From the NCBI RefSeq assembly GCF_003144095.1, contig NZ_NSKH01000023.1, positions 482,964-546,963 of the forward strand: a stretch of 64,000 nucleotides of DNA. The letters are read 5' to 3'. The stretch's first letter is position 1. Every line of letters starts with the position of its first letter. Source of the stretch: Streptomyces sp. ICBB 8177. GTDB lineage: Bacteria; Actinomycetota; Actinomycetes; Streptomycetales; Streptomycetaceae. The translations under genes and the position numbers were made by a program. Shown in pieces: positions 20,583 through 38,350 of this stretch. The notes below the pieces were generated by a model. That model worked only from the letters and a program-made list of their open reading frames with translations. It did no database searches and had not been told where the DNA came from.

Positions 20583-20732
20583 GGTTGGCCGCAACGGCGT
20601 GAGGAGTGTGGTGCGACCCGCGAGGGTCTCCGGCCCCGCCCCCGGCAGGGACGAGGGCGGAGGCCCCCGCGAGGGCCGAGGGCGGAGGCCGGAGACACTG
20701 CCGACACCGGCGGCCTGCGCGGCCGCGCCGGG

Positions 20733-22243: not shown

Positions 22244-22867
22244 TCAGCCGGTGAAGCCGTGCTCGCCGAGGGCCTTCTCGACGTGGGCGCGGTGCCGCGT
22301 CTCCCACTCGTCCAGGGTTTCCCCCGCCTCCTTCTCCAGCTTGGCGCGCGCCGTGCCGAACACCTCGTCCTTCCTGGCGGCGGGCGTGACGACGACGCCT
22401 TCCTCGTCGGCGACCACGATGTCGCCGGGGTGCACCACGACGCCTCCGCAGCGCGCCGGTCCGCCGAGGGAGCCGATCGCCTTCTTGGTGCCGGGGATCG
22501 GGATCACACCGCGTCCGAAGACCGGGAAGCCCGCCTCGCGCACCTCCGCCAGGTCGCGGATGAGCCCGTCGACCACGAAGCCCGCGACCCCGTGTCGCCG
22601 CGCGACGGCGCACACGTTGCCACCGGCGAGCGCGTGGTCCAGGTCACCCGACTCCACCACGATCACCGAGCCCGGCGCCGCGCGGTAGATCGCCGCGTGC
22701 AGCATGAGGTTGTCGCCCGGCTCGCACCGCACGGTGTACGCGGGACCCGCGAGCCGCGGCACCGGGGTCCACAGCGGGCGGACGCCGATGTCCATGACCT
22801 GAGCGCGGCCCAGGACGTCGGCGAGGGTGGTGGTCGGGACGTCCCGGTAGGAACTGCTGTCGTTCAT
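22244..22867 (-). CDS. RraA-superfamily protein (aldolase/decarboxylase-like), last gene of the second operon
   Basis: A 207-residue RraA-fold protein. Conserved features are LAGPAYTVRCEPGDNLMLHAAI, the glycine-rich GGNVCAVARRHG, the metal/substrate motif VVDGLIRDL (Arg-Asp pair) near residue 115 and GDIVVADEEGVVVTP. Members include 4-hydroxy-4-methyl-2-oxoglutarate aldolases that also decarboxylate oxaloacetate, and the RNase E inhibitor RraA. The retained DG-x(2)-RD motif argues for an active metal-dependent lyase on a small oxo acid, but the substrate cannot be read from the sequence. ATG at 22867 follows GGGGAG. It is 141 bp downstream of the reductase gene and may or may not share its transcript. 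Confidence 0.75.
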   Translation of the reverse strand: MNDSSSYRDVPTTTLADVLGRAQVMDIGVRPLWTPVPRLAGPAYTVRCEPGDNLMLHAAIYRAAPGSVIVVESGDLDHALAGGNVCAVARRHGVAGFVVDGLIRDLAEVREAGFPVFGRGVIPIPGTKKAIGSLGGPARCGGVVVHPGDIVVADEEGVVVTPAARKDEVFGTARAKLEKEAGETLDEWETRHRAHVEKALGEHGFTG

Positions 22868-23008
22868 CGAATCTCCCCGCTCCCGCCGCACCTCGCCTCT
22901 GCCGGCCGGCGGCTCGTCGCCGTGAGAGCGCGTGCCCGGTGCGACGCGATCAACCGGCCTTCCAGGAAGCGACCTTACAACCGGCGTGGCGCGGCGGGAC
23001 GGCCGCCG

Positions 23009-24046
23009 TCACGTCCCCCGGGCCACCATCGTCCACGGTTCGGGGCGGGCCAGCGCGAGGCGCGGTTTGCGGTCGGCCCAGTGGCGGACCGCGCCGGCCA
23101 TCGCCGTGGCGGGGTCCTCGACGGTGCGGGTCGGCTCGAACGGGCGGCTCATGCTCGTGTAACTCTGGAACATCGCCAGCAGTTTGACCGCCTCGTGCTG
23201 GAACGGGGACAGATAGCGTTCCGCCAGCGGCAGGAAGAAGCGGTTCCAGCTGTCGGTGGCGACGATGGGGGGCCGTTCGAGGGGATCGACGCCGTGCGCG
23301 GCGCGGTACTCGTTGAGCGTCCCGCACGTCACGTCCAGCAGCTCGCCGAGGCGGAGGCTGCCCGCGCCGCCCGCCACGACCTCGGTGCGAGGGTGTTCGG
23401 GGGGAGCGCCGAGCGCCGCGTCCACCACGGCCGCCGCGACCTCGTCGACCGGGCTGATCTCCGCGTAGCCTTCCGGATCGCCGACGACCACCGCCGCCAG
23501 ACCCGACGCCAGTGCGTGCAGCAGCGTGTACGGGCCCGAGAAGCGCGCGATCCCGCCGTCGCCGCGCCGTCCCACGATCAACGGAGGCCGCACCACGGTC
23601 AGCGGACCCCGGTGCTCCGCCCGGGCCACCTCCTCGCACCGTGCCTTCGACCACTCGTACCCGTTGCGGTACCCCTCGAACTCCTCACCGCGCAGATCCT
23701 CCGGATTGCGCACACCGCCCACGTACGCCGTGGAGACGTGCACCAGGTGTGTGCCGGAGTCCGCCAACCCCAGTACCGCACGCAGTGGTTCGACGTTGGC
23801 GGTGAACGCCTCCTCGCGGCTGAGCGTCCAGCGGGTGGAGGCCGCGGTGTGCACGATGACGTCCCAGGGGCCGTCCAGCGCCGCGGGTACGGGACGCTCG
23901 CCGATGGGCCAGCTCACCACGGAGGCGTCCGGGGCGCGCCGCGCGGTGCGCGTGACCGACGGCGCGCCGCCGTCCGCCGCCCCGCGCAGGGCGGCCACCA
24001 CCTCGGTCCCGACCACGCCGGTGGCACCGGTGACAAGGATGCGCAT
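23009..24046 (-). CDS. Extended SDR of the thioester/fatty acyl reductase type
   Basis: A 345-residue NAD(P)-binding protein. The cofactor motif is ILVTGATGVVGTEV at residues 3-16, and the active-site YxxxK is in GYEWSKARCEEVA near residue 130, followed by VVRPPLIVGRRGDGG. The overall pattern (VHVSTAYVGG, then YEWSK) resembles NRPS terminal reductase domains and fatty acyl reductases of the male-sterility group; the C-terminal part (RYLSPFQHEAVKLLAMF) resembles their second domain. It could reduce the ACP-bound acyl thioester to an aldehyde for the class III aminotransferase of the same operon. An epimerase role is a weaker alternative. Confidence 0.72.
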   Translation of the reverse strand: MRILVTGATGVVGTEVVAALRGAADGGAPSVTRTARRAPDASVVSWPIGERPVPAALDGPWDVIVHTAASTRWTLSREEAFTANVEPLRAVLGLADSGTHLVHVSTAYVGGVRNPEDLRGEEFEGYRNGYEWSKARCEEVARAEHRGPLTVVRPPLIVGRRGDGGIARFSGPYTLLHALASGLAAVVVGDPEGYAEISPVDEVAAAVVDAALGAPPEHPRTEVVAGGAGSLRLGELLDVTCGTLNEYRAAHGVDPLERPPIVATDSWNRFFLPLAERYLSPFQHEAVKLLAMFQSYTSMSRPFEPTRTVEDPATAMAGAVRHWADRKPRLALARPEPWTMVARGT

Positions 24047-24110
24047 GGGATCCGTTCCGTAGGGTTCGTGGGATGGGCGAAGGGTTCAGGACAGGCCTCG
24101 TGCCGACCGC

Positions 24111-25358
24111 TCAGCTCGGTGGGGTCAGCACCAGGCACGCGTTGTGGCCGCCGAAACCGAAGGAGTTGGACAGCACCGGGCCCACCGGGACCGCTCGCGG
24201 CGCGCCCGTCACCAGATCGACCAGATGGGCTTCCGGGCTCGTCGTGGTGTTGGCGACCGGCGGCACCACGCCCGCGCTCGCGCAGGTCAGCGCCAGCACC
24301 GCCTCCACCGCGCCCGAGCCGCCGATGAGATGACCGGTGACGCCCTTGACGGCGGTCAGCGGCGGCGAGGCCCCCGCGAAGCAGCGGTCGACGGCGAGCG
24401 CCTCCGCGCGGTCGTTGAGCAGCGTCGAGGTGCCGTGCGCGTTGACGTGGACGATGTCGGCGGGACGCAGCCCCGCGTCCGCTATGGCGCGGCGCATGCA
24501 CGCGGCCGCCACCGTGCCGTCCTCGTGCGGTGCCACGATGTGGAACGCGTCGCAGTTCTCCGCGAACCCGCTCACCTCGCCGTACACCCGGGCGCCGCGC
24601 GCCACCGCCGCGTCCCACCGCTCCAGCACCACCACCGCGGCGCCCTCGCCCATCACGAAGCCGTCCCGCTCCGCGTCGAACGGGCGGCTGGCCAGGTGGG
24701 GCGCGTCGGTGCGGGTGGACAGCGCGCGCATGCGGGCGAAGCCGCCCATGACCACCTTGGTCACCGCGGCGTCCACACCGCCCGCCACGGCCGCGTCCAG
24801 CTCGCCCGTCCTGATCCTGCGGGCCGCCTCGCCGATCGCCGTGGTGCCGCTGGCGCACGCGGTGGAGTACGTCGAGCACGGGCCCCGGAAGCCGTAGCGC
24901 ATCGCGATGCGGGAGGCGGGCGCGTTGGACATGGAACGCGGGACGGTGTGCACGGGCATGTCGAACGGCCGGTCACCGTGGTCCAGTGCGGCCCTCTCCA
25001 TGCTGGGCAGTCCGCCGATGCCGGTGCCGATCTGCACGCCCACCCGGTCGCGCGACAGCTCGGCGGGGAGCGCGGCTCCGGCCACCGCGTCGGCCGCCGC
25101 GCACAGTGCGAGCGTGGTGGCCCGGTCGATCTGCCGTGCCTCCCGCCGGCTGACGTAGGCCTCCTCGTCGAACGGCGGCACCAGGCAGGCGAACGGCACC
25201 GGCAGGTCGGCCTCGACGAGGTGTCCCACGACGGCGGCGGTGGACTTCGCCGCGAGCACCGTCTCGTGGGCCTCGGACAAGGTGGTGCCGGCCGGGCACT
25301 TCACACCGATGCCGGTGACGGCGACGCGCACCCGGCGCGAGCCGTCCCGTGCGGTCAC
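24111..25358 (-). CDS. FabF-like ketosynthase (KAS II family)
   Basis: A 415-residue beta-ketoacyl-ACP synthase with the full Cys-His-His set: Cys in YSTACASGTTAIG (near 166), His in HVNAHGTSTLLND (near 307) and His in GVTGHLIGGSGAVEAVL (near 342). The C-terminal SFGFGGHNACLVL is typical. It is a stand-alone synthase with no chain length factor partner, so it is not a type II aromatic PKS pair. GTG at 25358 overlaps the ACP stop. It would condense an acyl or aminoacyl starter with malonyl units on the adjacent ACP. Whether it supplies an iterative chain or one extension cannot be told. Confidence 0.87.
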   Translation of the reverse strand: MTARDGSRRVRVAVTGIGVKCPAGTTLSEAHETVLAAKSTAAVVGHLVEADLPVPFACLVPPFDEEAYVSRREARQIDRATTLALCAAADAVAGAALPAELSRDRVGVQIGTGIGGLPSMERAALDHGDRPFDMPVHTVPRSMSNAPASRIAMRYGFRGPCSTYSTACASGTTAIGEAARRIRTGELDAAVAGGVDAAVTKVVMGGFARMRALSTRTDAPHLASRPFDAERDGFVMGEGAAVVVLERWDAAVARGARVYGEVSGFAENCDAFHIVAPHEDGTVAAACMRRAIADAGLRPADIVHVNAHGTSTLLNDRAEALAVDRCFAGASPPLTAVKGVTGHLIGGSGAVEAVLALTCASAGVVPPVANTTTSPEAHLVDLVTGAPRAVPVGPVLSNSFGFGGHNACLVLTPPS

Positions 25359-25621
25359 GACCGCTCCCTGAGGCGTTCGTCCAGCAGGTCGACCGCGTGG
25401 CCAACCGTTTCGGCGAGGGTGAGGTCGCGGACCTCGATGCGCACCTCCAGCGCCTTCTCCAGGCGTGCCCCGATGTCCATGAGTTCGAGGCTGTCGACGC
25501 CGTAGTCGGCGACCAGGCTCACGTCGTCGCCGATCTCCTCCGGCTCGGTGCCGATGACGTCGGCGATGGCGGTCCTGACGGTGTGGGCGATCTCGTCACG
25601 GGTGCGAGTGGGGGTGGACAT
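25355..25621 (-). CDS. Acyl carrier protein
   Basis: An 88-residue free-standing ACP. The phosphopantetheine site is Ser44 in DYGVDSLELMDIG, and a second part VRDLTLAETVGHAVDLL is as in FabF-partner ACPs. Acidic composition fits the family. ATG at 25621 follows GGAGG. It lies between the aminotransferase gene (26-bp overlap) and the ketosynthase gene (GTGA overlap), so all are translationally coupled; this makes it the carrier on which the operon's chemistry most likely takes place. No phosphopantetheinyl transferase is encoded nearby. Confidence 0.92.
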   Translation of the reverse strand: MSTPTRTRDEIAHTVRTAIADVIGTEPEEIGDDVSLVADYGVDSLELMDIGARLEKALEVRIEVRDLTLAETVGHAVDLLDERLRERS

Positions 25622-27005
25622 GTGCGTTCTTCCTCCGGTACGTGCTGGGGCTCGCGGGGTGCCTCGCGGGGGCGGGCAGGGTGCGCTCCGCCGCGGTCAG
25701 GGCGGCGTCGAGGATGTCGATGGCCCGCCCGATGTCCTCCTGCGCGCAGGCCAGTGAGGGCAGCAGACGGATGGTGGTGGGGCTGCTCAGGCAGGGCGAC
25801 ACCAGCAGTCCCGCGTCGGCGAGTTCGACGACGGCGGTTCCGGCGGCGGGACGCGAGACGAGGTCGACGCCGCGCAGCAGGCCCCGGCCCCGCACGGACG
25901 CCACCACGCGCGGATGCCGCTCGCGCAGCCCGGTCAGGCCCGCGTCGAGCAGGGAGGCCAACCGGGCGCCGTGCGGGGCGAGTCGCTCGATGGCGCGAAG
26001 CGCCGCGGGCAGCGCCGCGCAGCCGAGCGGCTGGCCGCCGAACGTCGCCGAGTGCAGGAACGGGTCGGCCGCCAGCGGCGCGTACAACCGCTCGGAACAC
26101 ACCACCGCCGACAACGGCACCACACCGCCGCCCAGCGGCTTCCCCACCAGCACCGCGTCGACCGGCAGCCCCTCGGCGAGCGCCACCGACCGCTGTCCGC
26201 AGCGCCGCAGACCGCACTGGATCTCGTCCGCGATCACGAACGCGCCGTGCCGGTGGGCGTCCTCGCACCACTGGCGCAGGACCTCGGTGCGCAACGCCAC
26301 GGCGCCGTTCTCGCCCTGCACCGGCTCGAAGACCACGGCGGCCGGGGCGCGTTCCGCCGCCGCCTTCGCCACCGCGTCCGGGTCGTCCGGGTCCACGTGG
26401 ACCACGTCGGCGGTCACGCCGCTCAACCCGGCCCGGAACAGCGGGTTGTGGGTGAGCGCGAGCGCCCCCAGGGACTTGCCGTGGAAACCGCCGCGCACGG
26501 CGACGATCCCACCGCGTCCGGTGGCCAGACGCGCCAGTTTGATCGCCACCTCGACGGCGTCGGCGCCATTGAGACCGAAGTACACCTTCGGCAGCACGTC
26601 ACCGAAGTACCCCGACAGGCAGGCGGCGGCCCGTGCCGTGACCGGGTTGGACAGACTGCGGGTGGACGTGGGCATGGTGTCCAGCGCGGCGTGCACGGCC
26701 TCCACCACGGCGGGGTGGCGGTGACCGAGCAGGGTGACCGCGTAACTGCCGAAGTCGAGCACCTCGCGTCCGTCGGAGAGCGTCACCCGGCAGCCCTCGG
26801 CCGACACCTCGACCGCGCCGTGCCCGGCGAACGTCCCGGTCAGCGCCAGCTTGGGGGAGAAGTGGCGGCGGATCAGGTCGAAGGCCCGCTCGGCGCGGAC
26901 CGGCCCCGGGTCGGGCACGCCCTCCACCGGCCACGGGTTCGGCACACCGCCTGCCGGCAGGCGGTCGCGCACGCCGTCCGCCCCCGCGTCCAGCGGCCCG
27001 CTCAC
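25596..27005 (-). CDS. Class III PLP-dependent aminotransferase
   Basis: A 469-residue fold-type I aminotransferase of class III. The PLP Lys is in AVLVGKPLGGGVVPL (near 286); the Asp-Glu pair with ring-stacking residues is in FVIADEIQCGLRR, and GVNGADAVEVAIKLAR (as GLNGADAVE) and GGFHGKSLGA are the usual phosphate-binding segments. Start GTG at 27005 overlaps the SRPBCC stop. The long open frame upstream is the shadow of that gene. Omega-aminotransferases of this class aminate aldehydes released from carriers; with the FAR-like reductase here, a carrier-acyl to aldehyde to amine sequence is plausible. Confidence 0.85.
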   Translation of the reverse strand: MSGPLDAGADGVRDRLPAGGVPNPWPVEGVPDPGPVRAERAFDLIRRHFSPKLALTGTFAGHGAVEVSAEGCRVTLSDGREVLDFGSYAVTLLGHRHPAVVEAVHAALDTMPTSTRSLSNPVTARAAACLSGYFGDVLPKVYFGLNGADAVEVAIKLARLATGRGGIVAVRGGFHGKSLGALALTHNPLFRAGLSGVTADVVHVDPDDPDAVAKAAAERAPAAVVFEPVQGENGAVALRTEVLRQWCEDAHRHGAFVIADEIQCGLRRCGQRSVALAEGLPVDAVLVGKPLGGGVVPLSAVVCSERLYAPLAADPFLHSATFGGQPLGCAALPAALRAIERLAPHGARLASLLDAGLTGLRERHPRVVASVRGRGLLRGVDLVSRPAAGTAVVELADAGLLVSPCLSSPTTIRLLPSLACAQEDIGRAIDILDAALTAAERTLPAPARHPASPSTYRRKNAHVHPHSHP

Positions 27006-27475
27006 CGCACCGCTCCGTGCCGCGGGCGCGCTCCGGCCGCCGCCAGGCGCCGGTCCAGCGCGGTCAGCATCTGCGCCGCGTTCTCCCGCAGGGCGTCGGC
27101 GGCCACCCCGTCCAGCATCTCGGCCAGCAACGGGATGCCGATGTCGAAGTCGACGTGCAGCGACACCGTGCTGCCCCCGGCGGAACCCGGGACGACGGCC
27201 CAATGGCCGGTGAACTCGCCCAGGTCGCCAGCGACTTGACGGAAGTCGAACCTGCGGGCGTCCGGATCGATGACCTCCTCCTCGGTCCAGCGCAGCACCG
27301 ACCCCTTCAGACGCACCGACCACGCGGTGGTCCGATGTCGGTCGTCGGCCTGGTCGACGAGTTCCACGGACTCCACGTTGTCCATGCAGTCCGGGTACGA
27401 CCGCACGTCGACCACCGCGGCCCACGCCTCGTCGACCGGGGCGGCGATGCTCAGTTCCACGTCAACTCGTGGCAC
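27002..27475 (-). CDS. SRPBCC (polyketide cyclase/START-like) protein
   Basis: A 157-residue SRPBCC-fold protein. The N-terminal pattern ELSIAAPVDEAWAAVVDVRSYPDCMDNVESVEL and the later GSTVSLHVDFDIGIPLLAEML are those of COQ10/aromatase-cyclase relatives, which bind hydrophobic ligands in a helix-grip cavity. Next to an ACP and a ketosynthase it may act as a cyclase/aromatase or hold the acyl intermediate. No catalytic residues can be named with confidence. GTG at 27475 is 3 bp after the acyltransferase stop; its own stop overlaps the aminotransferase start. Confidence 0.75.
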   Translation of the reverse strand: MPRVDVELSIAAPVDEAWAAVVDVRSYPDCMDNVESVELVDQADDRHRTTAWSVRLKGSVLRWTEEEVIDPDARRFDFRQVAGDLGEFTGHWAVVPGSAGGSTVSLHVDFDIGIPLLAEMLDGVAADALRENAAQMLTALDRRLAAAGARPRHGAVR

Positions 27476-27478
27476 GGA

Positions 27479-28720
27479 TCAGACTCCTTCGTCGGTTGTG
27501 GCGGAAGCGGGCCTGCCGTCGGGGTGGTTCGTCGGGGAGGCCGGTGCGTCGTCGAGCAGCGCCGCGTGCGGGCCGAGGGTGTCCGCCAGGGCGGTGGACA
27601 ACGCGGCGGGCAGCACCCTGCGCAGCAGCGCCCGGACCGTCGGCCGGACGTGGGTGACGGCGTAGGTCTGCGGTATCAGATCACAGCCGAACTCGACCTT
27701 CGGCGTGTACGCGGTCTGCGCGAAGCGGATGTGCGCGCATCCCGACTCCAGCGCCAGCCGGATCGCCGCGTAGTGCACGACGTGGTAGAGCCGTGCCTCG
27801 TGCGCGAGCCGGTAGTCCAGGCCGATGCGTGCCCCGGTGGCGCCCTTGCCGGAGAACAGGCACAGCAGGAACGCCACCAGCCGCTCGCCCTCGAAGCAGG
27901 CGACCAACCGGCGGCGCGGCTGCCCGCTCGCCTCGACGGCGGCCAGGAACGTGGGATCGAGGGAGTCGAGCGTCTGGTCCGCGCGGTCCATGACCTGCCG
28001 GTACAGCTCGAAGACCTGCGGCAGCAGCGCGGCGAAGTCGTCCAGCACCTGAACGCGCAGGTCGCCGTGGGCCTCGAACTTGCGCGTCTTGGAGCGCAGA
28101 TTGCGGCGCGGCTTCGCGGGCAGCGACGCCACGTACTCCTCGAACGAGCCGTGACCGAGGGTGAGTTGGGTGTCCGGCATGCTCGGCACGAAGAAGAAGC
28201 CGGCACGCGACAACTCTCCACGCAAGGGTGCGAGTTCCGCGGGAGCGAAGTCCTTGAAGACCACCGTCCCCAGCCGCTCGTGCCGGGCGAAGCCCAGCAC
28301 CGCCTCCACCATCAGCCGCACCACCTCACGCGGCGGCGGCCCGGCGCTCAGCAGATGCCCCTGTCCCAGCAGGTTGCCGCACAACAGCATGGGAATGCGC
28401 AGCAGCCGGGGGCACACCTTCCGCACCGGAGCCAGGAACCGCCGCTCCCTCGGCCCCACGACGTCGTCCAGCCGCAGGTCCCGGAAGAGGCACAGCGGCA
28501 GCACGGCCACCACGTCCTCGCCGCGACGGGCCACCAGGTACGCGTAGCCCTCGGGGCCGATCGCGCCGCGTTCCATCGAGGCGAACAGCCCGCGCGACCA
28601 CATGGGGTCGTCCGGCGGTGCCAGCGCCTCCCACACGGCCTCCGGCAGCGCGGCCACACCGCGTACCACCTCGACGCGGTACGCGCCCGCCCGTATCGCG
28701 GTGTCCTCGCGTTCCGTCAC
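27479..28720 (-). CDS. FemAB/GNAT-like N-acyltransferase (BioF2-like or CelD-like)
   Basis: A 413-residue protein with the double GNAT build of FemAB/CelD-like acyltransferases: an N-terminal half with DDPMWSRGLFASME and PLCLFRDLRLDD, and a C-terminal half with KPRRNLRSKTRKFE, RRLVACFEGERLVAFLLCLFSG, YRLAHEARLYHVVHYAAI and HIRFAQTAYTPKVEFGC. Proteins of this group transfer aminoacyl or acyl groups to amines. In this operon it could acylate the amine formed by the aminotransferase, or move an aminoacyl group to the ACP. GTG at 28720 is preceded by GGAGGA. Family placement is from pattern only. Confidence 0.62.
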   Translation of the reverse strand: MTEREDTAIRAGAYRVEVVRGVAALPEAVWEALAPPDDPMWSRGLFASMERGAIGPEGYAYLVARRGEDVVAVLPLCLFRDLRLDDVVGPRERRFLAPVRKVCPRLLRIPMLLCGNLLGQGHLLSAGPPPREVVRLMVEAVLGFARHERLGTVVFKDFAPAELAPLRGELSRAGFFFVPSMPDTQLTLGHGSFEEYVASLPAKPRRNLRSKTRKFEAHGDLRVQVLDDFAALLPQVFELYRQVMDRADQTLDSLDPTFLAAVEASGQPRRRLVACFEGERLVAFLLCLFSGKGATGARIGLDYRLAHEARLYHVVHYAAIRLALESGCAHIRFAQTAYTPKVEFGCDLIPQTYAVTHVRPTVRALLRRVLPAALSTALADTLGPHAALLDDAPASPTNHPDGRPASATTDEGV

Positions 28721-28772
28721 CGAATCCTCCGTCCGCCCCGTGGTCGTGTTCCGTCCGCCATCGCCCGTCCCC

Positions 28773-29903
28773 TCACCCGATGCGCAACCGGGCGCCGTCG
28801 AGGTACTCGCGCAGCGGTGCGGCCATACGCGAGCGGGACGGCGGATGGAAGGCCAGCCCGGCGGCGGCCGAGGCGAGGTACGCGCCGTCCGGCGAGCCGA
28901 TGAACGCCATCCCGCCCAGCGCCTCGACACACGCCCGGGTGGTGCGGGTGATGGCGTCCTGCGCCGCGTACCGCGCGGTCAGCGCGCTCACCAGGAGCGT
29001 GTCGTCCCACGCGCTGTCGTCCATGGCCCGGGCGACCGCCTCCACCGCGAGCATCGCCGCGTCCACGTCCACCATGAACCGCGCCGGGTCGTCACCGGGG
29101 CCGCCGGTGCGCTCCAGCACCCGTTCGACCAGAGCGCCGGCGATGCCGATGTACCCGGCGGTCAGCAGGAGTTCGAACCACAGGAAGCCGGCGACGTTGA
29201 GCGAGTCCGGCACGGCGTCGGCGGTCACCTCGGTCGCCACCACCATCTGCGGGTCGAGCTCGACGTCGGTCAGCACCACCTCGTCGCTCTCCGCGCCCGC
29301 CAGGACAGGGGTGTTCCAGAAGGGCCGCACCGAAAGGCCCGGTGTCTTCGCGGGGACGATGGCCACCGCGAGCCGGTCGGTGCCGTCCTCGTCGGCGAGC
29401 ACCACGGACGCGGTCAGCAGGTCCATCGAACGCGACAGGCTGCACGGCTTCTTGCTGCCGTTGAGCACCACGCGGTCGCCGCGACGCCGCGCGGTGATGT
29501 GCGGACGCAGGATGTTCTGGCCGGTGTTGCCCTCGGCGAAGCCGGACGCCAGCAGCATGCGGTTCTTGGCGATGGCCTCCAGCAGCAGGCCTTCCAGGCC
29601 CGTGCCCGCCTTCGCCGACTCGACCAGTCCGGCCACCGAGAAGTGGTGCATGGTGGTCGCCACCGCGAGTGAGGGGCAGCGCGCGCCGACGGCCCGCTGC
29701 ACCCGCACCGCCTGCAAGGGGCTCGCCCCGGCGCCCGCGTTCTCCTCGGGCACGAGCAGGCCGGGCCCGCCCGCGTCGCGGAACGCGGTGATCGCCGGGC
29801 TGGGCGCGCGCTCCAGCTCCTCCAGCGGATGGCCGGCCAGGGCCTGGTCGAGGCCGGGTACCAGCTCCTCCAGGGTCGCGCGCTCGACGTTCAGGAAGTT
29901 CAC
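28773..29903 (-). CDS. Acyl-CoA dehydrogenase-family flavoprotein
   Basis: A 376-residue acyl-CoA dehydrogenase fold protein. It shows the FAD/substrate segment ASGFAEGNTGQNILRP (where mainline members have a shorter, T-S containing motif), GDRVVLNGSKKPCSLSRSMD, and a C-terminal TTRACVEALGGMAFIGS. In secondary metabolism such enzymes desaturate ACP-bound acyl chains, as in tambjamine formation, or act as flavin monooxygenases. I could not identify the catalytic Glu. Start GTG at 29903, 136 bp downstream of the P450 gene, with GAGAGG before it. Confidence 0.75.
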   Translation of the reverse strand: MNFLNVERATLEELVPGLDQALAGHPLEELERAPSPAITAFRDAGGPGLLVPEENAGAGASPLQAVRVQRAVGARCPSLAVATTMHHFSVAGLVESAKAGTGLEGLLLEAIAKNRMLLASGFAEGNTGQNILRPHITARRRGDRVVLNGSKKPCSLSRSMDLLTASVVLADEDGTDRLAVAIVPAKTPGLSVRPFWNTPVLAGAESDEVVLTDVELDPQMVVATEVTADAVPDSLNVAGFLWFELLLTAGYIGIAGALVERVLERTGGPGDDPARFMVDVDAAMLAVEAVARAMDDSAWDDTLLVSALTARYAAQDAITRTTRACVEALGGMAFIGSPDGAYLASAAAGLAFHPPSRSRMAAPLREYLDGARLRIG

Positions 29904-30039
29904 GGGCGATGCCTCTCTCACGCAGGAGTTCACGCCGGAATTCACGCTGGGGCTCACACGCAACGACACGCTCGGCGTTCGGCGCGTGGGCGCCAACAAC
30001 CCGTGTGACGCGCGGAGTTGGCGCCGGTCGCCGGGCCGG

Positions 30040-31257
30040 TCACCGGACGGCGAGCGCGAGTCGGTCGAACGCGCGCAGACTGATGCTGTCGCGGCGCACC
30101 GGCGGCTCCGCCTCGTACAGGCCGGGGAAACGCGTCAGCAGCCCCCGGATCGCCGTCGCGCCCTCCATCCGGGCCAGCGCCGCGCCCAGGCAGAAGTGCG
30201 CGCCCGCGCTGAAGCTGAGCACCCGCACGTCGGGGCGGCGCACCAGGAAGGGGTCGGGGTCCGGATGGCGGGCCGGGTCGCGGTTGGCGGCGGCGAGCAC
30301 CGTGGTGACGTTGGCGCCCTCGGGGACGTCCACCCCTCCGATCCGGGCCGGGCGGGAGGCGATGCGTTCGGTCATGCGGACCGGGGTGTCCCAGCGCAGC
30401 GACTCCTCGACCGCGTCCCGGGCCAGCGCGGGGTCGTCGCGGACCAGGGTCAACTGGTCCGGGTGGGACAGCAGCGCGTGCACGGTCAGCCCCAGCAGGC
30501 TCGTCGTGGTCTCGAACCCGGCGACGAAGACCAGCAGCAGGTTGTCCACCAACTCCCGCTGCGTCAGCCGCCCGTCGTCGGCGTCGCGCACCTGGAGCAG
30601 CGCGGTCGCCAGGTCGTCGGCGGGCTCGCAGCGGCGGCGCTCCAGCAGTTCGGCGAAGTACTCGCGCAGCGACTCCACGGCGTGGTCGGCGCGCTTGAAG
30701 TCCTCGTCGGTGCGCACCGGCTCCAGCAGCCGCCCGGCGTCCTGCCCGTAGCCGCGGAACCGCTCCTGGTCGGGGCGCGGCACGCCGATGAGGTCGCCGA
30801 CCACCGCCACCGGCAGCGGGTAGCCGACGAGTTCCTGGAAGTCGGCGTGGCCGCCGTCGCCGGTGGCGTCCGCGAACCGGTCCAGCAGGTCCGAGACGGT
30901 CTCCTCGACCGGACCGGACAGCGCCGCGACCCGCCGCGCGCTGAACGCGCCACCGACCAGCCGCCGGACCCGCGCGTGGTCGTCGCCGTTGGCCCGCAGC
31001 ATGGAGGAGTAGAAGAACTCCGCCCCCGCGTGCTCGCGCCAGTCCGGCATCTCCCGCTCGCACCACTGCAGATCGGGCGTGCGGAAGCCGGGGTCGGTCA
31101 GGACGGCCTGGCAGTCGTCGAAGCGGGTGAGGAAATAGGTGTCCAGCGTCTCGTTGCGGTAAACGGGCGCCACGGCGCGCAGGCGGGCCAGCGCGGGATG
31201 CGGGTTCTCCCTGCCCTCCGGGGTGAACATCGAGAAGAGAAGTGTTTCGGGATCCAC
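30040..31257 (-). CDS. Cytochrome P450, first gene of the second operon
   Basis: A 405-residue soluble bacterial P450. The heme ligand Cys is in FSAGAHFCLGAALARME (near 355), the I-helix oxygen-activation motif is AGFETTTS (near 245), and the K-helix ExxR is in EESLRWD. The full motif set indicates an active enzyme; the Ala-His before Cys is a common variant. It presumably oxidises the product or a carrier-bound intermediate. GTG start at 31257, GGAAGGG 9 bp upstream. No ferredoxin gene is nearby. Confidence 0.9.
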   Translation of the reverse strand: MDPETLLFSMFTPEGRENPHPALARLRAVAPVYRNETLDTYFLTRFDDCQAVLTDPGFRTPDLQWCEREMPDWREHAGAEFFYSSMLRANGDDHARVRRLVGGAFSARRVAALSGPVEETVSDLLDRFADATGDGGHADFQELVGYPLPVAVVGDLIGVPRPDQERFRGYGQDAGRLLEPVRTDEDFKRADHAVESLREYFAELLERRRCEPADDLATALLQVRDADDGRLTQRELVDNLLLVFVAGFETTTSLLGLTVHALLSHPDQLTLVRDDPALARDAVEESLRWDTPVRMTERIASRPARIGGVDVPEGANVTTVLAAANRDPARHPDPDPFLVRRPDVRVLSFSAGAHFCLGAALARMEGATAIRGLLTRFPGLYEAEPPVRRDSISLRAFDRLALAVR

Positions 31258-31718: not shown

Positions 31719-32945
31719 TCAGGCCATCAGGCCCGCCGCCAGATGGTCGGCGCCCGGGCCGAAGCCGGGCAGGGCGAAGAAGTAGCCGCCGCCGGTGGGC
31801 TGGACGTAGTCCACGAGCGGCTCGCCGGCCAGCCGGCGCTGCACGGCCTCGAACTGCCGCCGCACGTCCTGCTGGTAGCAGCAGAAGACCAGGCCCACGT
31901 CCAGGTCGCCGACCGCGTCGAGCCCCCGGTCGTAGGAGTAGCCGCGGCGCAGGATGCGCTGGGACGCGGCGGCCGGGGTGCGCGGGTTGGCCAGCCGGAT
32001 GTGGGAGTCGAGCGGGGTGATCAGCCCGTGCGGGTCGGCCGCGAAGTCCGGCGGGTCCGATTCGCGGGTGCCGTCGAGCGGTGCGCCGGAGTCGCGGCGG
32101 CGCCCGATCATGGTCTCCTGCTCCTGGAGCGAGACCCGGTCCCAGAACTCCACGAGCATCCGGATGATCCGGATCACCTGGTACGAGCCGTCCCGCGCCC
32201 ACGCGCTCCCGCCCGTTTCGGCGCTTCCGGTCCAGATCAGCGCGTCCGCCACCTGCGGATCGGCCACGTCGGGCTGCGAGGTGCCGTCCTTGAAACCGAG
32301 TTGATTGCGTGGCGCGCCGTCCGGCCTGGGCGGGGGCAGGAAGCCGTCCGCCTTCCACACCGCCTGCATCGCGCCCCGGGTGTGCTTGGTGATGTCGCGC
32401 AGCGCGTGCATCACCGTGTCGCGGGAGTCGGCGCAGATCTGGAGCGAGATGTCGCCGTGCAGTTCGGCCGAACCGGCGACGTGGTCGTCGGGGAAGACCG
32501 GCATGGTGGTCAGCCCGGCGGGTCTGCGACCGGCCAGCCCGAACCGTTCGTCGAACAGCGACGCGCCGACGCCGACGGTCACCGTCAGCCCGTCGGCCGG
32601 CAGCGCGTCGCCGAGCAGGCCGCTGTCGGCGGGAGGCGAGACCAGGTCGGTCGCGGGCACCGGGCCGCCCGCGGTGAGCGCCCGCACCCGGTCGGTCAGC
32701 GTGCGGAACAACGCGGTCAGTCCGGCCCGGTCGGACGCGATTACGTCGAACGCGGCGAAGGTGGCGGCGGCCTGCTGCGGGGTCGTGATGCCGGCCTGGT
32801 GCCGCCCCTCGCAGGGAAGGCGGCGTCCCGAGGCGGCGGTGGACGGGGGAGCGGCGGCCAGCGCGCCGGTGGCGGCGGCGGCGGCCGCCGCCGCGCTCGC
32901 GGTGGCGCCGCGCAGGAAGGCGCGCCGCCCGGGCGCGGCGGTCAC
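31719..32945 (-). CDS. efeB: EfeB, Tat-exported Dyp-type heme peroxidase
   Basis: A 408-residue Dyp peroxidase with a twin-arginine signal (RRAFLRGATASAA) at residues 7-19. The family GxxDG motif is in LGFKDGTSQPD (near 213), and the proximal heme His is in LDSHIRLANPR. EfeB-type proteins act outside the membrane in ferrous/ferric iron handling together with EfeO and EfeU, or release iron from heme. GTG at 32945 overlaps the EfeO stop (GTGA), so the two are one operon. No EfeU permease is encoded in the neighbourhood. Confidence 0.88.
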   Translation of the reverse strand: MTAAPGRRAFLRGATASAAAAAAAATGALAAAPPSTAASGRRLPCEGRHQAGITTPQQAAATFAAFDVIASDRAGLTALFRTLTDRVRALTAGGPVPATDLVSPPADSGLLGDALPADGLTVTVGVGASLFDERFGLAGRRPAGLTTMPVFPDDHVAGSAELHGDISLQICADSRDTVMHALRDITKHTRGAMQAVWKADGFLPPPRPDGAPRNQLGFKDGTSQPDVADPQVADALIWTGSAETGGSAWARDGSYQVIRIIRMLVEFWDRVSLQEQETMIGRRRDSGAPLDGTRESDPPDFAADPHGLITPLDSHIRLANPRTPAAASQRILRRGYSYDRGLDAVGDLDVGLVFCCYQQDVRRQFEAVQRRLAGEPLVDYVQPTGGGYFFALPGFGPGADHLAAGLMA

Positions 32946-34162
32946 GCGGACGTCCTCGGCGCGAGGAGCCCGGGAACCTCGGCCAGTTGCTCCAGCAGGC
33001 CGCCCAACGCCCCTTCGAGTACGCGGCGTTGACCGGGGGGCAGTTGCCCGGCCGCGATCCACGTCCCGTTCGCCGCACGGCAGGACCGCATCCTCGCCTG
33101 CACCGCCGACAGCTCACGTGTCAGCGAGGACGCCAATTCCGGGTCACGGGGACGCAGCAGCGGGGCGAGGACGCCCAGCACCTCACGGGTGCCGTCGAGG
33201 TTCGCGTCCAGGGTGGCGAGCGTGGTGCCGCTGCCGTAGTCGGCGGACCCGGTGAGCTGGAACTCCATCGCGTTCTCCAGGATCTCGTGGGAGCGCAGCG
33301 GCAGGTCGCCCGGATCGATGTCCTCGCTGGGGAAGTCCCGGATCAGCCCGGTGACGTCGGAGACCAGCCGGGTGGTGAGCGGGCGCAGTTCGGCGGCCGG
33401 GCGCCCGCGCCACAGGTCGTACTCGATCCGGTGGAAGCCGGTCCAGCCGGGCGAGTCGACGCCCTGCGGCAGCCCGTCGGCCCGCCCGTCGATGGTGTCG
33501 CCGAAGTCGCCGAAGGCGGTGTACGCGGCGCCCAGCCGCTCGTAGTCGAGATGGGCGGTCAGCCAGCGGGACTTCGCCGCCGCCAGGTCGCCGCGCGCCA
33601 CGGCGGCGTCCAGGTCGCGAGCGGCGGTCAGCAGGCCGGGCAGTGCCGCGGCGACCCAGGCCCGGTAGGCGTCGACCGGCGCCGTCATGGCCAGGTCCGG
33701 CACCGGGCGGTACCCGGCCACCGCGTCGTCCGTGCGGCCGGTGACGGTCATCGGGCGCGAGGCGCGCACCGTGCCGTCGGAGAAGACGCAGCGGAACGCG
33801 TAACTCCCGGCGCTCAGCGCGGTGTCGAGTGCGACGGCGTGCCCCGGCGCTATCCACGGGATCTCGGCGTAGACCTCGGCACCGCCCGGCGAGGTGAGGT
33901 AGACCGTGGCGTACGGCGTCGCCCGGTCGGTCACCGTGAACGACAGCCGCCCGGCGGGCAGACGGCCGCCCGGCGCACCGCACCGCGTGGCGTCCACCCC
34001 GAACGCGCCGCCGGGCGCCGCCGCCCCGGTCCCCGCCCCGGCCGCCGAGCCCGCGCAGACGGCGGCCACGACGACCGCCGCCGCCCCCGCCCCGGCCCGC
34101 CGCCACCGTGGCCTCCGGCTGCCTTCGCGTTCGGGCGCCGGGTCGTGGGCGGGGTCGGGCAT
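32942..34162 (-). CDS. efeO: EfeO-type iron-binding protein (cupredoxin plus M75 domain)
   Basis: A 406-residue exported protein: basic start and hydrophobic segment AGAAAVVVAAVCAGSAAG (about 24-41), a cupredoxin-like domain (about 60-140), and an imelysin/M75 domain (about 160-400) with the conserved HxxE in FHRIEYDLWRG (near 260). EfeO binds iron for the EfeUOB uptake system. The start ATG at 34162 has a weak ribosome binding site; the hydrophobic part lacks an obvious lipobox Cys directly after it, although VCAGSAAG contains a Cys. Confidence 0.83.
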   Translation of the reverse strand: MPDPAHDPAPEREGSRRPRWRRAGAGAAAVVVAAVCAGSAAGAGTGAAAPGGAFGVDATRCGAPGGRLPAGRLSFTVTDRATPYATVYLTSPGGAEVYAEIPWIAPGHAVALDTALSAGSYAFRCVFSDGTVRASRPMTVTGRTDDAVAGYRPVPDLAMTAPVDAYRAWVAAALPGLLTAARDLDAAVARGDLAAAKSRWLTAHLDYERLGAAYTAFGDFGDTIDGRADGLPQGVDSPGWTGFHRIEYDLWRGRPAAELRPLTTRLVSDVTGLIRDFPSEDIDPGDLPLRSHEILENAMEFQLTGSADYGSGTTLATLDANLDGTREVLGVLAPLLRPRDPELASSLTRELSAVQARMRSCRAANGTWIAAGQLPPGQRRVLEGALGGLLEQLAEVPGLLAPRTSA

Positions 34163-34232: not shown

Positions 34233-35117
34233 TCAGTCCCAGATGTCGGTGATCGGGGTCGCGTCGGCGCTCTGGCCGACCGGTTCGAGACCGTACAGCT
34301 GCTCCAGCGTGGCGAGCAGGTCGTAGTGGTCGACGTCCTCGCTGTAGTGACCGGTCTTGACGTGGTCACCGACGATGATCGTGGGGATCTGGTTGTCCTC
34401 GGTGTAGTCGTCCTCGTCCCACGTGACGATCAGCAGGCTGTTGTTGGCCTTCGCCCAGGTCGCGTACGCGGACAGGTTCTTGTTCAGCCAGGTGTCGGCC
34501 TGGTTGATGGTGCCGTCGTGCATGTCGTCGTCGAGGTTCGGGATGACGAACGACAGCGTGGGGAGCGTGGAGTAGTCGGTGGGGAACGACGAGAACGGGA
34601 CCGAGTCGGAGGACGGCACGTTGCTGAAGTTGATCCACGGGGAGTGCTTGCGCGCGTAACTGCCCGAGGAGCAGCTGGTCGAGCCGGTCTTCGGCAGGCC
34701 TTCCGAGTACCCCTTGAACGTCCGCCCGGCGGCGAGGAGTTCGGAACCGAGGTTCGCGGCGGAGCCCTCGTTCACCGGGCAGCTGTCGGCGGTCAGGCCG
34801 TAGGTGCTGCCGCTGAACAGCGCCATGTAGTTGGGCTCGCTCGGGTGGGTCACGGCGAACGACGAGGTGAGCAACGCCCCTTGTGAGGCGAGGGAGTTGA
34901 AGTACGGGGCCTGCGAGGTGTTGCCGATGATGTCGGAGTAGGAGTGGTTCTCCTCCATCACCACGACGACGTGCGAGGGCGTCGGGACGGTGTCGGCGGC
35001 CGCCTTGACGGGGGTGGCCGGAGCGGTGGCGCCGTGCGGTGCGAGCGTCGCGGCGAGGACGGCGCCGGTCGCGGCGGCGACGGCGAACGGCACGGTGAAG
35101 CGCGGCCTGGGGCGCAT
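34233..35117 (-). CDS. Secreted acid phosphatase/phosphoesterase (SapM-like, alkaline phosphatase superfamily)
   Basis: A 294-residue protein with a Sec signal (FTVPFAVAAATGAVLAATLA, cleaved near residue 28-30). The metal and substrate region is HVVVVMEENHSYSDIIGN, then VTHPSEPNYMALFSGS; a C-terminal VTWDEDDYTEDNQIPTII and VDHYDLLATLEQLYGL complete the fold. Relatives dephosphorylate phospho-monoesters or phosphoinositides outside the cell. The unrelated gene directions nearby suggest a single-gene transcript. It lies 70 bp upstream of the EfeO start on the same strand. Confidence 0.8.
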   Translation of the reverse strand: MRPRPRFTVPFAVAAATGAVLAATLAPHGATAPATPVKAAADTVPTPSHVVVVMEENHSYSDIIGNTSQAPYFNSLASQGALLTSSFAVTHPSEPNYMALFSGSTYGLTADSCPVNEGSAANLGSELLAAGRTFKGYSEGLPKTGSTSCSSGSYARKHSPWINFSNVPSSDSVPFSSFPTDYSTLPTLSFVIPNLDDDMHDGTINQADTWLNKNLSAYATWAKANNSLLIVTWDEDDYTEDNQIPTIIVGDHVKTGHYSEDVDHYDLLATLEQLYGLEPVGQSADATPITDIWD

Positions 35118-35692: not shown

Positions 35693-36514
35693 TCACGCCT
35701 TGCCGATGTCGCGCGGCAGTTCCAGGCCGAGCCACCGGTCGGCGAAGAGGAACGTCTCGAACTTCGCGCCATCCGCCACCTGCGGATCCGCCGCAAGACG
35801 CCGCAGCGCGGCGAGCGCGGCCGGGCTGTCGAGGCCGTCGTGGAAGGCGGCCACCACCTCCTTGGCGCTGACCGCGTGCACGGGCTGCGACGTGGCCCGA
35901 GCCCAGTGCGCCACCCGCTCCCGCCAGCCGGTCAGCTCCGCCGCGGCGGCCTCCAGGGCGGCGGGGGACAGGCCGGCGGTCCGGTCGTAGGGCGTGCCGA
36001 GCAGCGCCAGACGCACGGCCATGGGGTCGGCGGCCTCCGGGTCGGCGTCGGCGCCGGGGGCCCGGGCGCCCGGCCAGGTCGGCGCGGGGGCCACCGCGAC
36101 GCGTACGCCGTCGTCGTCCCTCGGCGGGTCCGCCGCCGCCGCGACCACGTGCACGTCGACCGGGCCGCCCAGCGCGTACCGCACGCCGGACGGCTCGGTG
36201 CGCACCGTCGCCGGGTGGATGCCCGCGCGGGCCCCGGCCCCGGCCAGCTCGCGGTCGTGGTCCTCGCAGGAGGCGTCGCCCGCGGTCCACGCGGACACCA
36301 CTTGGAGCCCGTCGAGTTCCACGGTGCGGGTCAGCACGTCAGCGATCAGGAGCGCGCGCAGATCGCCCTGGTCGTGCGGGGTCCCGGTGGCCGACGTGTG
36401 CACGCACACCCGCAGCAGGCCGCCCCGCGGGCGGCGCAGGTCACGGAGCCCGCCGGTGCGGGCGTCCCGGATGCGCACGGAAGACCACCTGACTCTCGCA
36501 TCGCGGCCGGTCAC
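35693..36514 (-). CDS. Degenerate cysteinyl-tRNA-synthetase-like protein
   Basis: A 273-residue protein whose two ends resemble cysteinyl-tRNA synthetase/MshC. Near residue 25-60 LLRVCVHTSATGTPHDQGDLRALLIADVLTRTVELDG follows the start of the Rossmann domain but the HIGH motif is replaced by HDQGD-like residues, and no KMSKS is visible. The C-terminal part (VVAAFHDGLDSPAALAALRRLA, then GAKFETFLFADRWLGLEL) matches the helical C-terminal region. At well under synthetase length it is probably not an aminoacylating enzyme. The GTG at 36514 follows GGGGGG. Function unknown. Confidence 0.6.
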   Translation of the reverse strand: MTGRDARVRWSSVRIRDARTGGLRDLRRPRGGLLRVCVHTSATGTPHDQGDLRALLIADVLTRTVELDGLQVVSAWTAGDASCEDHDRELAGAGARAGIHPATVRTEPSGVRYALGGPVDVHVVAAAADPPRDDDGVRVAVAPAPTWPGARAPGADADPEAADPMAVRLALLGTPYDRTAGLSPAALEAAAAELTGWRERVAHWARATSQPVHAVSAKEVVAAFHDGLDSPAALAALRRLAADPQVADGAKFETFLFADRWLGLELPRDIGKA

Positions 36515-37060
36515 ATCACCCCCCGTGACGACATGGCCCTCACTGTCGGGATACCCGTGCGGCACGTGTGTCACACCGGACGGTGACACAACGGTGTGAA
36601 GCGGGGCGATCCCGTCAGCGCCCCGGCGCCGGTGCCACCGGTGGCACCGGTGGGGCCCGCGTCCCGTCGGCACGCACCGCGCCGGGGCGGACGGACCCGA
36701 CGCGGGCGCGGACTGCCCGGCCGCCCAAGTCTGCCGCCCTTCAGGCCGGTTCGGCCCGGGGAGGGCGAAGTCGCGGCCGTGACAGGCGTCGACGACCTCA
36801 CCGGCGAGGTGGCCGACGGCTCCGCGCACGCCTGAGGGCGGGCGGTGCGGGCCGTTCGGTCACGTGTACGCGGGGACGGGACGGAGTGTTCAGCGGGCGG
36901 GAAAGACGGCCGCCTGCACGCCTCCCACCTGGACGGATGTACAGAACTTAAAGACGGCGTGGGGGCATTGGGGAGGTCGTGAGGATTCCCCGGTACGGTG
37001 TGCGGCAGTCGATCGCCGGTTCATGGCGCGATCGTTGATCACCAGAGGGGGCCTATGCCC
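36515..37060. other. Divergent control region with two palindromes
   Basis: 545 bp between divergent genes, with no gene. TGTGTCAC-N8-GTGACACA (36567-36590) has perfect 8-bp arms 53 bp upstream of the synthetase-like start. GGTGCCACCGGTGGCACC (36631-36648) is an 18-bp perfect palindrome. Near the hydrolase start AGAGGGGG (37044-37051) is a ribosome binding site. Confidence 0.6.
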
Positions 37061-38350
37061 ATGTCACGCCTGCGCATAAGACACCGCGGCCGCAGACTCG
37101 CCCGGGTCGCCGGTGCCGCGGGTCTGGTTGCCGCAGTCATGGGGGCCGGGATCGCCCCGGCCAACGCCAGCACCAAGCCCGGCGGCGACAACCACGGCGG
37201 CCTGGTCAACATGGACGCCACACCCACCGGGGGGAAGGCGGCCGCCCACGCCACCCGTGGCGCCACCACCGTGTCGATGCCGGCGCCCACCGGCCCGTAC
37301 AAGGTGGGAACGGTCAGCCTGCACCTGAAGGACACCTCGCGTACCGACCCGTACGTTCCCGGTCACCAGGCCCGTGAGCTGATGGTCTCGCTGTGGTACC
37401 CGGCGGGCAGCACCACGGGCCACTCCCTGGCGCCGTGGATGCCGTCGCTGACCGCCGCGCACTACCTGGCCGGTCTCGGCGTGCGGGCCGGTTCGCTGAA
37501 CCTGCCCACCACCGCCGGGCACGTCCTGGCCCCGGTGGACACCAAGGCGGGCAAGCTGCCGGTGCTGCTGTACTCCACCGGTCTGCACTCGGACCGCGCC
37601 ATGGGCACCGCACTCGTCGAGGACCTGGCCAGCCGCGGCTACCTGGTCGTCGCCGTGGACCACACCCACGACGCCAACGAGGTCGAGTTCCCCGGCGGCC
37701 GGCTGGAGACGGACACCATGCCGTCCAACGCCCACTCCTCCGACACGCTCGCGGTGCGCGCGGCCGACGTCAAGTTCGTCATCAACGAACTGGGCCAGAT
37801 CGAGGACGGCAAGAACCCGGACGTCGACAAGGCCAAGCTGCCCACCGGGCTGCTGCGCAACGTCGACATGAGCAAGATCGGCATGTTCGGCTGGTCGCTC
37901 GGCGGGGCCGCCGTGGCCACGTCCATGCAGCTCGACTCCCGCATCGACGCGGGCGCCGACCTGGACGGCACCTTCTACGGTTCGGCGACCTCCGAGAACC
38001 TCAGCCGTCCGTTCATGCTCTTCAGCTCCGCGACGCACAACCGCAACGACGACTCCAGCTGGGCCACCTTCTGGTCCCACCTGAAGGGCGTGCGCTACGA
38101 CCTGAAGATGGCCGGTTCGCAGCACCTGACCTTCAGCGACAACGAGGTGCTGCTGCCCCAGGCGGCGAACCAGCTCGGCCTGTCGCAGGCGCAGGTGCAG
38201 CAGACCCTCGGCACGATCGCGCCCAACCGCGCGATCCAGGTCGAACGCACCTACCTGGCGGCCTACTTCGGCCAGGAGCTGCTGAAGGAGAAGAGCAGCC
38301 TGCTGAGCGGTACCTCCTCGTCGTATCCGGAGATCAGCTTCGTGAAGTGA
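37061..38350 (+). CDS. Secreted alpha/beta hydrolase (PAF-acetylhydrolase/cutinase-like)
   Basis: A 429-residue hydrolase with a Sec signal (basic start, then VAGAAGLVAAVMGAGIAPANAS). The nucleophile Ser is in GMFGWSLGGAAVA (near 277); oxyanion-hole and lid context is LLYSTGLHSDRAMGT. The Asp is likely in GADLDG and the catalytic His in SQHLTFSD. This pattern is that of platelet-activating factor acetylhydrolase-like and polyester hydrolase-like proteins of actinomycetes. I chose the ATG at 37061 (9 bp after AGAGGGGG); an ATG two codons upstream is possible. A hairpin follows the stop. Confidence 0.82.
   Translation: MSRLRIRHRGRRLARVAGAAGLVAAVMGAGIAPANASTKPGGDNHGGLVNMDATPTGGKAAAHATRGATTVSMPAPTGPYKVGTVSLHLKDTSRTDPYVPGHQARELMVSLWYPAGSTTGHSLAPWMPSLTAAHYLAGLGVRAGSLNLPTTAGHVLAPVDTKAGKLPVLLYSTGLHSDRAMGTALVEDLASRGYLVVAVDHTHDANEVEFPGGRLETDTMPSNAHSSDTLAVRAADVKFVINELGQIEDGKNPDVDKAKLPTGLLRNVDMSKIGMFGWSLGGAAVATSMQLDSRIDAGADLDGTFYGSATSENLSRPFMLFSSATHNRNDDSSWATFWSHLKGVRYDLKMAGSQHLTFSDNEVLLPQAANQLGLSQAQVQQTLGTIAPNRAIQVERTYLAAYFGQELLKEKSSLLSGTSSSYPEISFVK

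Follow-up and report, generated by a model that had tools for sequence, protein, structure and literature searches.

A reduced, putatively noncatalytic relative of cysteinyl-tRNA synthetase in Streptomyces and its frequent SixA-like neighbour

HIGH, KMSKS and CP1 are named parts of the synthetases. SLIMP, GluQ-RS/YadB, the cyclodipeptide synthases and CysRS* are synthetase-like proteins with new jobs and share the pattern of a paralogue that shed synthetase parts and left its old role; in the accessible text of PMC9437257, none of those named is described as derived from cysteinyl-tRNA synthetase (CysRS) with both motifs and CP1 lost. Cyclodipeptide synthases are class I synthetase-like and use aminoacyl-tRNA (PMC2922099 and PMC9437257, accessible parts). 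MshC, the cysteine:GlcN-Ins ligase of mycothiol synthesis (TIGR03447), shares with the protein described here the CysRS fold without an anticodon domain. A phosphatase resembling the phosphohistidine phosphatase SixA was found to be encoded beside many relatives of this protein; according to the accessible parts of the sources, SixA of E. coli dephosphorylates a histidine of NPr (PMC7948535) and SCO1809 of S. coelicolor is called a SixA of unknown function (PMC9739823). A literature search, with subscription journals mostly outside its reach, returned no title on a pseudo-CysRS family.

A CysRS-like protein in Streptomyces sp. ICBB 8177

The pseudo-CysRS gene lies within a 64,000-nucleotide stretch of Streptomyces sp. 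ICBB 8177 (the window) at 35693..36514 on the minus strand, as supported by ORF calling, family alignment, fold and purifying selection; gene calls came from our own composition-based script and not from annotation. The ORF runs from 36514 to 35693 and comprises 273 codons plus a stop. A 261-residue product is possible because most relatives start approximately at the equivalent of GTG 36478 in the family alignment and a ribosome-binding-like AGGTGG precedes this codon; the product has 273 residues, or perhaps 261.

No family was matched by the window protein in a Pfam scan, the cysS model TIGR00435 (cut-off 340 bits) gave no match even at E 10, and the CysRS model PRK14536 scored a sub-threshold 20 bits. 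The best single-sequence model match was MshC (NCBIfam TIGR03447; 29.4 bits, E 3.4e-7), which did not reach the curated cut-off of 485; this model was matched by 30 of 30 family-alignment rows at E 0.01 or better. When the family profile was compared with structures, it retrieved MshC (E 5.9e-11) and one CysRS (E 0.003); its first 70 positions also aligned to a CysRS from the start through the HIGH region, a stretch that is not significant alone. The AlphaFold model of the window protein (pLDDT 89, pTM 0.88) aligned to CysRS 3sp1 over 254 residues (VIA; Z 24.6, 2.6 A) and to MshC 3c8z over 245 residues (Z 23.1). The first 19 Foldseek rows and the first 14 VIA rows were all CysRS or MshC, for which the VIA Z was 20-25 versus about 15 for the remaining class I synthetases listed, and no cyclodipeptide synthase appeared among the best 50 rows from Foldseek or VIA. 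The likeness to CysRS and MshC exceeds chance, and in the predicted model the window protein has the class I Rossmann and helical-bundle fold of CysRS. The initial annotation had recognized by eye a CysRS-like protein with a preserved Rossmann N-terminus and helical C-terminus and had suggested structure prediction against CysRS and MshC; this recognition was correct, since the profile matches, the AlphaFold model and the Foldseek/VIA rows all point to these two enzymes.

Compared with CysRS (TIGR00435, PF01406), including CysRS2 (our label for an extra, motif-intact CysRS of other Actinomycetes), the window protein shares the fold minus CP1, the helix after HIGH with Asp59 and Arg63, and Arg168, but is without HIGH, KMSKS, zinc ligands, CP1, anticodon domain and any Pfam or cysS match. 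Motifs were counted after 108 distinct relatives had been aligned with 16 CysRS/MshC rows. The HIGH position, placed in the CysRS/MshC alignment by counting back from Arg53 without gaps, reads DQGD (residues 48-51; 36362..36373, minus strand). None of 107 relatives retains the first His of HIGH and none of 108 has KMSKS, which the window protein lacks too; the absence of both motifs noted in the initial annotation extends to the family; the CP1 stretch WHIEC (0/108) and the FPHHE stretch are likewise gone. Where CysRS and MshC have their first zinc-binding Cys, the window protein has His39 (36398..36400, minus strand), a replacement found in 97 of 107 relatives. His39 and His122 are jointly kept in 92 of 108, where H122 is the FDIH histidine of CysRS as matched by eye and was aligned elsewhere by MAFFT. 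The Arg after HIGH (Arg53) was found in 107/107 relatives; Arg53, Asp59, Arg63, Ser209 and Glu253 are almost invariant, and Arg168 is also retained.

The helical-domain motif WRERVAHWARATSQP (residues 197-211; 35882..35926, minus strand; WR..VA.WA..PS.P in the family) and the C-terminal motif GAKFETFLFADRWLGLELPR (residues 249-268; 35711..35770, minus strand) are largely common to intact CysRS2 (e.g., L184-L187), whose helical-domain motifs are close to those of the window protein. The C-terminal helical end is the best-conserved region (mean top-residue frequency 0.76, residues 246-273), and the window protein terminates just past GAKFETFLFADRWLGLELPR, before the anticodon domain. After the last helical motif there are 7-28 residues in the family versus 58-62 in CysRS2 (3 measurable rows of 6 tried). 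The anticodon domain CysS_C (PF23493) was found in 2/2 intact CysRS2 and 0/5 dead forms tested, and was not detected by Pfam in the window protein. A C-terminal tail is still present in the dead form L200/L214 of family f91.

In MshC, zinc and cysteine are held by C43, T46, T83, C231 and H256 (PMC9736012, accessible part); by our own motif mapping, these residues fall on replaced or deleted positions here. This speaks against cysteine or cysteinyl-adenylate being bound in the usual mode, one of the roles considered at the outset, and ordinary binding of cysteine by the window protein is unlikely as judged by the alignment. Binding of tRNA, also suggested initially, is doubtful in view of the loss of CP1 and the anticodon domain. 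Judged by its residues, the window protein is catalytically dead.

Distribution, selection and descent of the family

The same intact short ORF was found in the sister species, Streptantibioticus parmotrematis, at 86-87% identity; a frameshifted or truncated copy in sister strains, the outcome against which the initial annotation had set its reading, was not what this comparison returned. Between window and sister, dN/dS was 0.40 over 260 codons, with 20, 17 and 36 changes by codon position. A sample of 297 Streptomycetaceae genomes included 140 with a match at E 1e-5 and 125 after filtering, the 15 genomes dropped having a match confined to residues 156-267, in frames of 412-969 aa that were MshC-type or unclear (G022, for example). 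The family is widespread in Streptomycetaceae, though patchy. The window gene is not broken, as its sister has the same short ORF and 125 of 297 genomes carry relatives; a truncated or frameshifted copy is disfavoured by the intact sister ORF and the dN/dS. Plasmid relatives were found in Rhodococcus (three strains, four records), Kitasatospora and Streptomyces, and all six annotated plasmid copies listed are named "hypothetical protein". The copy on pDK2 (Rhodococcus sp. DK17, L175 8580-9330) is split into two overlapping frames, unlike that of pROB01, and may be frameshifted. Carriage by viruses was considered, and 32 pattern matches in viral contigs included 0 true relatives.

When 16 close pairs were pooled, dN/dS was 0.42 in the N-part and 0.31 in the C-part. 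Single pairs scatter widely, with the N-part reaching 0.79 and 1.1 in two. In a separate comparison, the pair L060/L067 gave 1.53, from very few changes. A decaying pseudogene or spurious ORF would be consistent with these high single-pair values, the lost active site, the patchiness of the family and the stop or frameshift in a few relatives (internal stops in 2 of 125 family rows, G061 and G224, and the pDK2 copy), but was already disfavoured and is highly improbable given the dN/dS and codon-position changes of the window gene, the long ORF in 108 distinct rows and the high-confidence predicted fold.

The same genome carries a canonical CysRS (L136) with its motifs present. Its MshC (L002/L137) is a separate gene, retains HMGH, KMSKS, WHIEC and FPHHE, and is also separate from the window protein on the tree. 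The comparison points to a dead synthetase paralogue maintained by selection beside an intact enzyme, and the pseudo-enzyme look remarked on earlier agrees with the lost motifs and with the selected state of a gene beside an intact CysRS.

Phylogeny of the protein, also proposed in the initial annotation, placed the family on the CysRS2 side and apart from MshC. In a 60-row tree, the 21 family rows formed one clade (100), the seven MshC rows formed a separate clade (99) away from the family, and a branch (98) separated standard CysRS plus MshC from the family plus another CysRS type (L130, L135, L139-L146). This other type coexists with a second CysRS in several genomes; it may itself serve as a synthetase, because it is the sole match at E 1e-20 in three genomes (G392, G407 and G421). 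An MshC offshoot active in mycothiol metabolism is suggested by the best single-sequence model match and the best profile-structure matches, which are both MshC. This origin, already disfavoured, is very unlikely, as the tree branch (98) sets the family apart from standard CysRS and MshC, the model score is 29 against a cut-off of 485, and the family profile matches the 10 intact CysRS2 better (E 1e-23 to 1e-45, 8/10 below 1e-37) than the MshC-type frames of Streptomycetaceae (E about 1e-12 to 1e-17). The window protein is best read, from the tree and profile scores, as a reduced, domesticated descendant of CysRS2 and not as an MshC offshoot.

Among 296 class members searched, there were 62 matches at E 1e-22, of which 49 lay outside Streptomycetaceae. 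Twenty regions were fetched from these 49, and were found to hold 10 motif-intact CysRS2 (HVGN, KMAKS or KMSKS) and 10 degenerate forms. L184 and other intact CysRS2 bear the family motifs WAESPS and GAKFETF..DRVLGLDLARDVG, and canonical CysRS was also present in 19 of 19 genomes checked. In three genomes (G842, G783 and G896), CysRS of canonical type was matched twice (E about 1e-193 and 1e-155), in addition to MshC-size matches and a dead CysRS2. Scores against cysS (NCBIfam) form a series, from 368-406 in intact CysRS2 (n = 3, all exceeding the TIGR00435 cut-off of 340) through 173 in L211 and 33 in L215 to none in L219/L174.

Part of this series was found in the same genomic slot. The intact CysRS2 of G874 (family f91, L209) and that of Nonomuraea gerenzanensis (L176; HVGN, KMAKS, FPHHE), which was the seventh record of the plasmid search, follow a three-gene block of MNFCLSDL, the UvrD-like MPRLA and MNLSLSDI; in L211-L216, the same slot holds dead forms of 375, 415, 400, 338, 267 and 290 aa. 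The block recurs with extra genes between in L217 (two) and L220 (one), and the context of L221 is only partial. Besides the UvrD-like helicase, the f91 block includes two look-alike proteins, MNFCLSDLVPPLRW and MNLSLSDIVPPLRW, with a sigma-70 region 4 match in the single MNLSLSDIVPPLRW protein tested. An intact CysRS2 occupies a second slot, with a ferredoxin (by eye), a small protein and a SirB1-like gene (PF13369), in L206 and, partially, in L204 and L205; L219 has a 217-aa dead form there, separated by an additional gene. The intact, half-degraded and minimal CysRS2 forms, partly in the same slot, allow a synthetase becoming a pseudo-enzyme to be followed and raise the question of what the retained part does.

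CP1 is kept without HIGH or KMSKS in L211-L213 and is gone in L215-L217. In a tree of the C-terminal half, eight f91 dead forms grouped with two intact forms (G874 and N. gerenzanensis) at 98/95, and the Streptomyces clade was separate (99/99); the hypothesis that all dead forms arose once was not rejected (p-AU 0.22, 113 columns). We make the case, by sequence comparison, that CP1 was lost at least twice, as f91 L194-L196 keep it, in contrast to other f91 forms and to the Streptomyces family.

The dN/dS of CP1-less f91 pairs (n = 3) was 0.34-0.63 in the C-part and 0.71-1.01 in the N-part, that of CP1-keeping f91 pairs (n = 2) was 0.28-0.47 in both parts, and that of an intact pair was 0.23. 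A neighbour gene at the f91 loci gave 0.08 and 0.18 versus 0.44 and 0.65 for the dead forms. Constraint thus seems strongest on the helical domain, yet weaker than on an ordinary gene, since the C-part of the CP1-less f91 pairs is below the N-part and the neighbour gene is lower still. These ratios also bear on whether the protein could be an enzyme that catalyses a new reaction in the ancestral pocket, in principle like the cyclodipeptide synthases, which it resembles in small size and lost ATP motifs (PMC2922099 and PMC9437257, accessible parts). The joint retention of His39 and His122 and the almost invariant residues Arg53 to Glu253 listed above would suit such an enzyme; we consider it improbable, however, because the residues at the HIGH position vary across the family, the pooled dN/dS is higher for the N-part than for the C-part, two of the three f91 pairs without CP1 have an N-part value close to 1, and no biosynthetic enzyme family is prominent among the top 25 neighbour families.

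SixA-like phosphatase and other neighbours

Counts of named loci refer to the best-scoring 80 of 371 named relatives, and "SixA2" is our label for the SixA-like phosphatase beside pseudo-CysRS. A SixA-like gene was found to adjoin pseudo-CysRS in 60 of these 80 loci, 57 times downstream and three times upstream. In 55 of the 57 downstream loci, an in-frame SixA start gives a 4-base overlap with the pseudo-CysRS stop (ATGA in 36, GTGA in 18 and TTGA in one), the first gene calls having placed some SixA starts later, 34-98 bp away. PF00300 was detected in the two SixA neighbours tested, and the phosphatase motifs (RHA/RHG and second His) are intact in 58 of the 60. Two of the 57 downstream copies are short SixA-like remnants with a decayed or truncated look, in L048 (10825-10974, 50 aa) and L080 (10825-11040, 72 aa), where the pseudo-CysRS ORF is open. 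In the Streptomycetaceae sample, SixA is adjacent in at least 74 of 125 genomes from four genera (at least 69 downstream, three upstream, one convergent and one divergent), a lower bound in that the 95 higher-scoring of about 150 SixA rows listed entered the comparison; the state of adjacency changes five times on the family tree.

An adjacent SixA is absent at the sister species locus and at 19 further named loci of the 80. Within the 64 kb of the window, tblastn at E 1e-6 found no SixA gene, adjacent, overlapping or otherwise. As the window has none and 51 of 125 genomes show no adjacent SixA among the matches listed, the partnership is not universal. Genes like SixA2 without pseudo-CysRS were found in seven rows at 58-69% identity and in four more at 54-57%, and the latter four may represent the universal SixA. 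Of 297 genomes, 296 had one or more SixA-like matches, and the SixA neighbour of pseudo-CysRS is apparently an accessory second SixA. Among the plasmid members of Rhodococcus and Kitasatospora, neither a SixA nor an enolase neighbour was seen in the PLSDB tables, which are incomplete.

The 4-base overlap in 55 of 57 downstream loci makes a regulatory partnership with SixA our best functional guess for pseudo-CysRS. Since selection retains the gene in many actinomycetes, often beside a phosphatase gene, pseudo-CysRS probably performs a new, noncatalytic job. The gene would be a shortened, catalytically dead descendant of a second CysRS lineage, CysRS2, in which selection keeps a noncatalytic binding function whose main seat would be the helical domain (WR..VA.WA..PS.P and GAKFETF..DR.LGLDL). 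In the coupled Streptomyces loci, which are most of the named ones, the protein would most likely be a partner or regulator of the SixA-like histidine phosphatase; in the window species, where the SixA neighbour is lacking, an action in trans or a different partner would be expected. We give this account as a whole an even chance. The SixA coupling offers a concrete, testable link of a dead synthetase to phosphohistidine signalling in antibiotic producers. A wider version, in which a second function of the CysRS2 helical domain outlived catalysis in place in several lineages (two or more), so that mini-proteins of about 215-290 residues remained and the Streptomyces form became the coupled regulator of a SixA-type histidine phosphatase, is possible but rather doubtful; if true, it would tie a synthetase relic to histidine-phosphate signalling.

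The SixA adjacency could instead be incidental and the partner a central carbon or stress factor, such as an enolase paralogue. An enolase paralogue lies directly beside pseudo-CysRS, in differing orientations, in L032 (8514-9833), L033 (8064-9341), L069 (10830-12104) and G011 (contig C38). This pairing is unlikely to explain the family, as it was found in three of the 78 named loci covered by the neighbour table (the target was not called in L039 and L101) and in two of 40 genomes tested (G011 and G001, the latter being the genome of L032), whereas pairing with SixA, mostly with an overlap of the two genes, is much more frequent. The G011 enolase paralogue is 67% identical to the S. parmotrematis copy, compared with 54-57% for nearly all others.

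Genes up to three positions away were surveyed at 22 chosen loci, mostly without SixA, giving 125 proteins of which 103 were scanned; the 22 unscanned were six window genes, about eight large proteins, three SixA copies and a number of short proteins. The commonest families were DUF5994 (seven), then enolase, MFS and MerR (three each). With its leading family, DUF5994, in seven of the 103 proteins, the survey gave no prominent recurring neighbour other than SixA. These data were also considered for a regulator that binds tRNA or aminoacyl-tRNA, a dead synthetase that docks RNA and thereby controls CysRS, MshC or translation. Descent from a synthetase in the trees, the conservation of the C-terminal helical end and the precedent of SLIMP, a dead synthetase paralogue that binds tRNA (PMC9437257, accessible part), are consistent with such a role. 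Against it, CP1 and the anticodon domain are gone from the family, tRNA genes were found within about 10 kb in two of 39 loci scanned and adjacent in none of the 39, and no translation factor was present in the top 25 of 143 neighbour families from the 103 proteins; we judge it unlikely. The partnership with SixA at the coupled loci remains the reading we prefer.

Upstream DNA and the surrounding window

The pseudo-CysRS gene shares its upstream intergenic region with a divergent hydrolase gene (37055..38350, plus strand), which encodes a PAF-acetylhydrolase (PF03403) with a weak PETase match (PF12740). The palindromes reported upstream by the initial annotation exist, as a 22-bp perfect palindrome, CCGGTGCCACCGGTGGCACCGG (36629..36650, unstranded), and an inverted repeat, TGTGTCAC-N8-GTGACACA (36567..36590, unstranded). 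Perfect palindromes with arms of at least 11 number one in the window versus 0.1 expected (20 shuffles), and inverted repeats whose 8-nt arms are separated by 4-16 nt abound, the window having 99. The inverted repeat lies inside a conserved upstream block of about 115 bp shared with S. parmotrematis, and this proximal element, TCACACC...GGTGTGA, is the only upstream repeat conserved in that species; the 22-bp palindrome is not conserved there. The S. parmotrematis block has a repeat of its own with 11-nt arms, CGCGTCACACC-N14-GGTGTGACGCG (by eye). The regulated expression proposed from these palindromes is plausible for the proximal conserved element but not for the unconserved 22-bp palindrome. 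The conserved repeat is a possible regulator site, in a region that also lies upstream of the divergent hydrolase gene.

The next downstream gene (34233..35117, minus strand) encodes a phosphoesterase of family PF04185 and lies 575 bp away; an operon partnership with pseudo-CysRS is not obvious. Further along, a Dyp-peroxidase-like protein (by eye) is encoded beside an imelysin-domain protein (PF09375) at 31719-33934, a pair which we take to be an EfeB/EfeO-like iron-uptake pair. A run of biosynthetic-looking genes, named by eye, occupies 12272-31257 on the minus strand, and includes a very long protein (13595-18238), a ketosynthase-like protein (24111-25331), a carrier protein-like gene (25355-25621) and a cytochrome P450-like gene (30040-31257).
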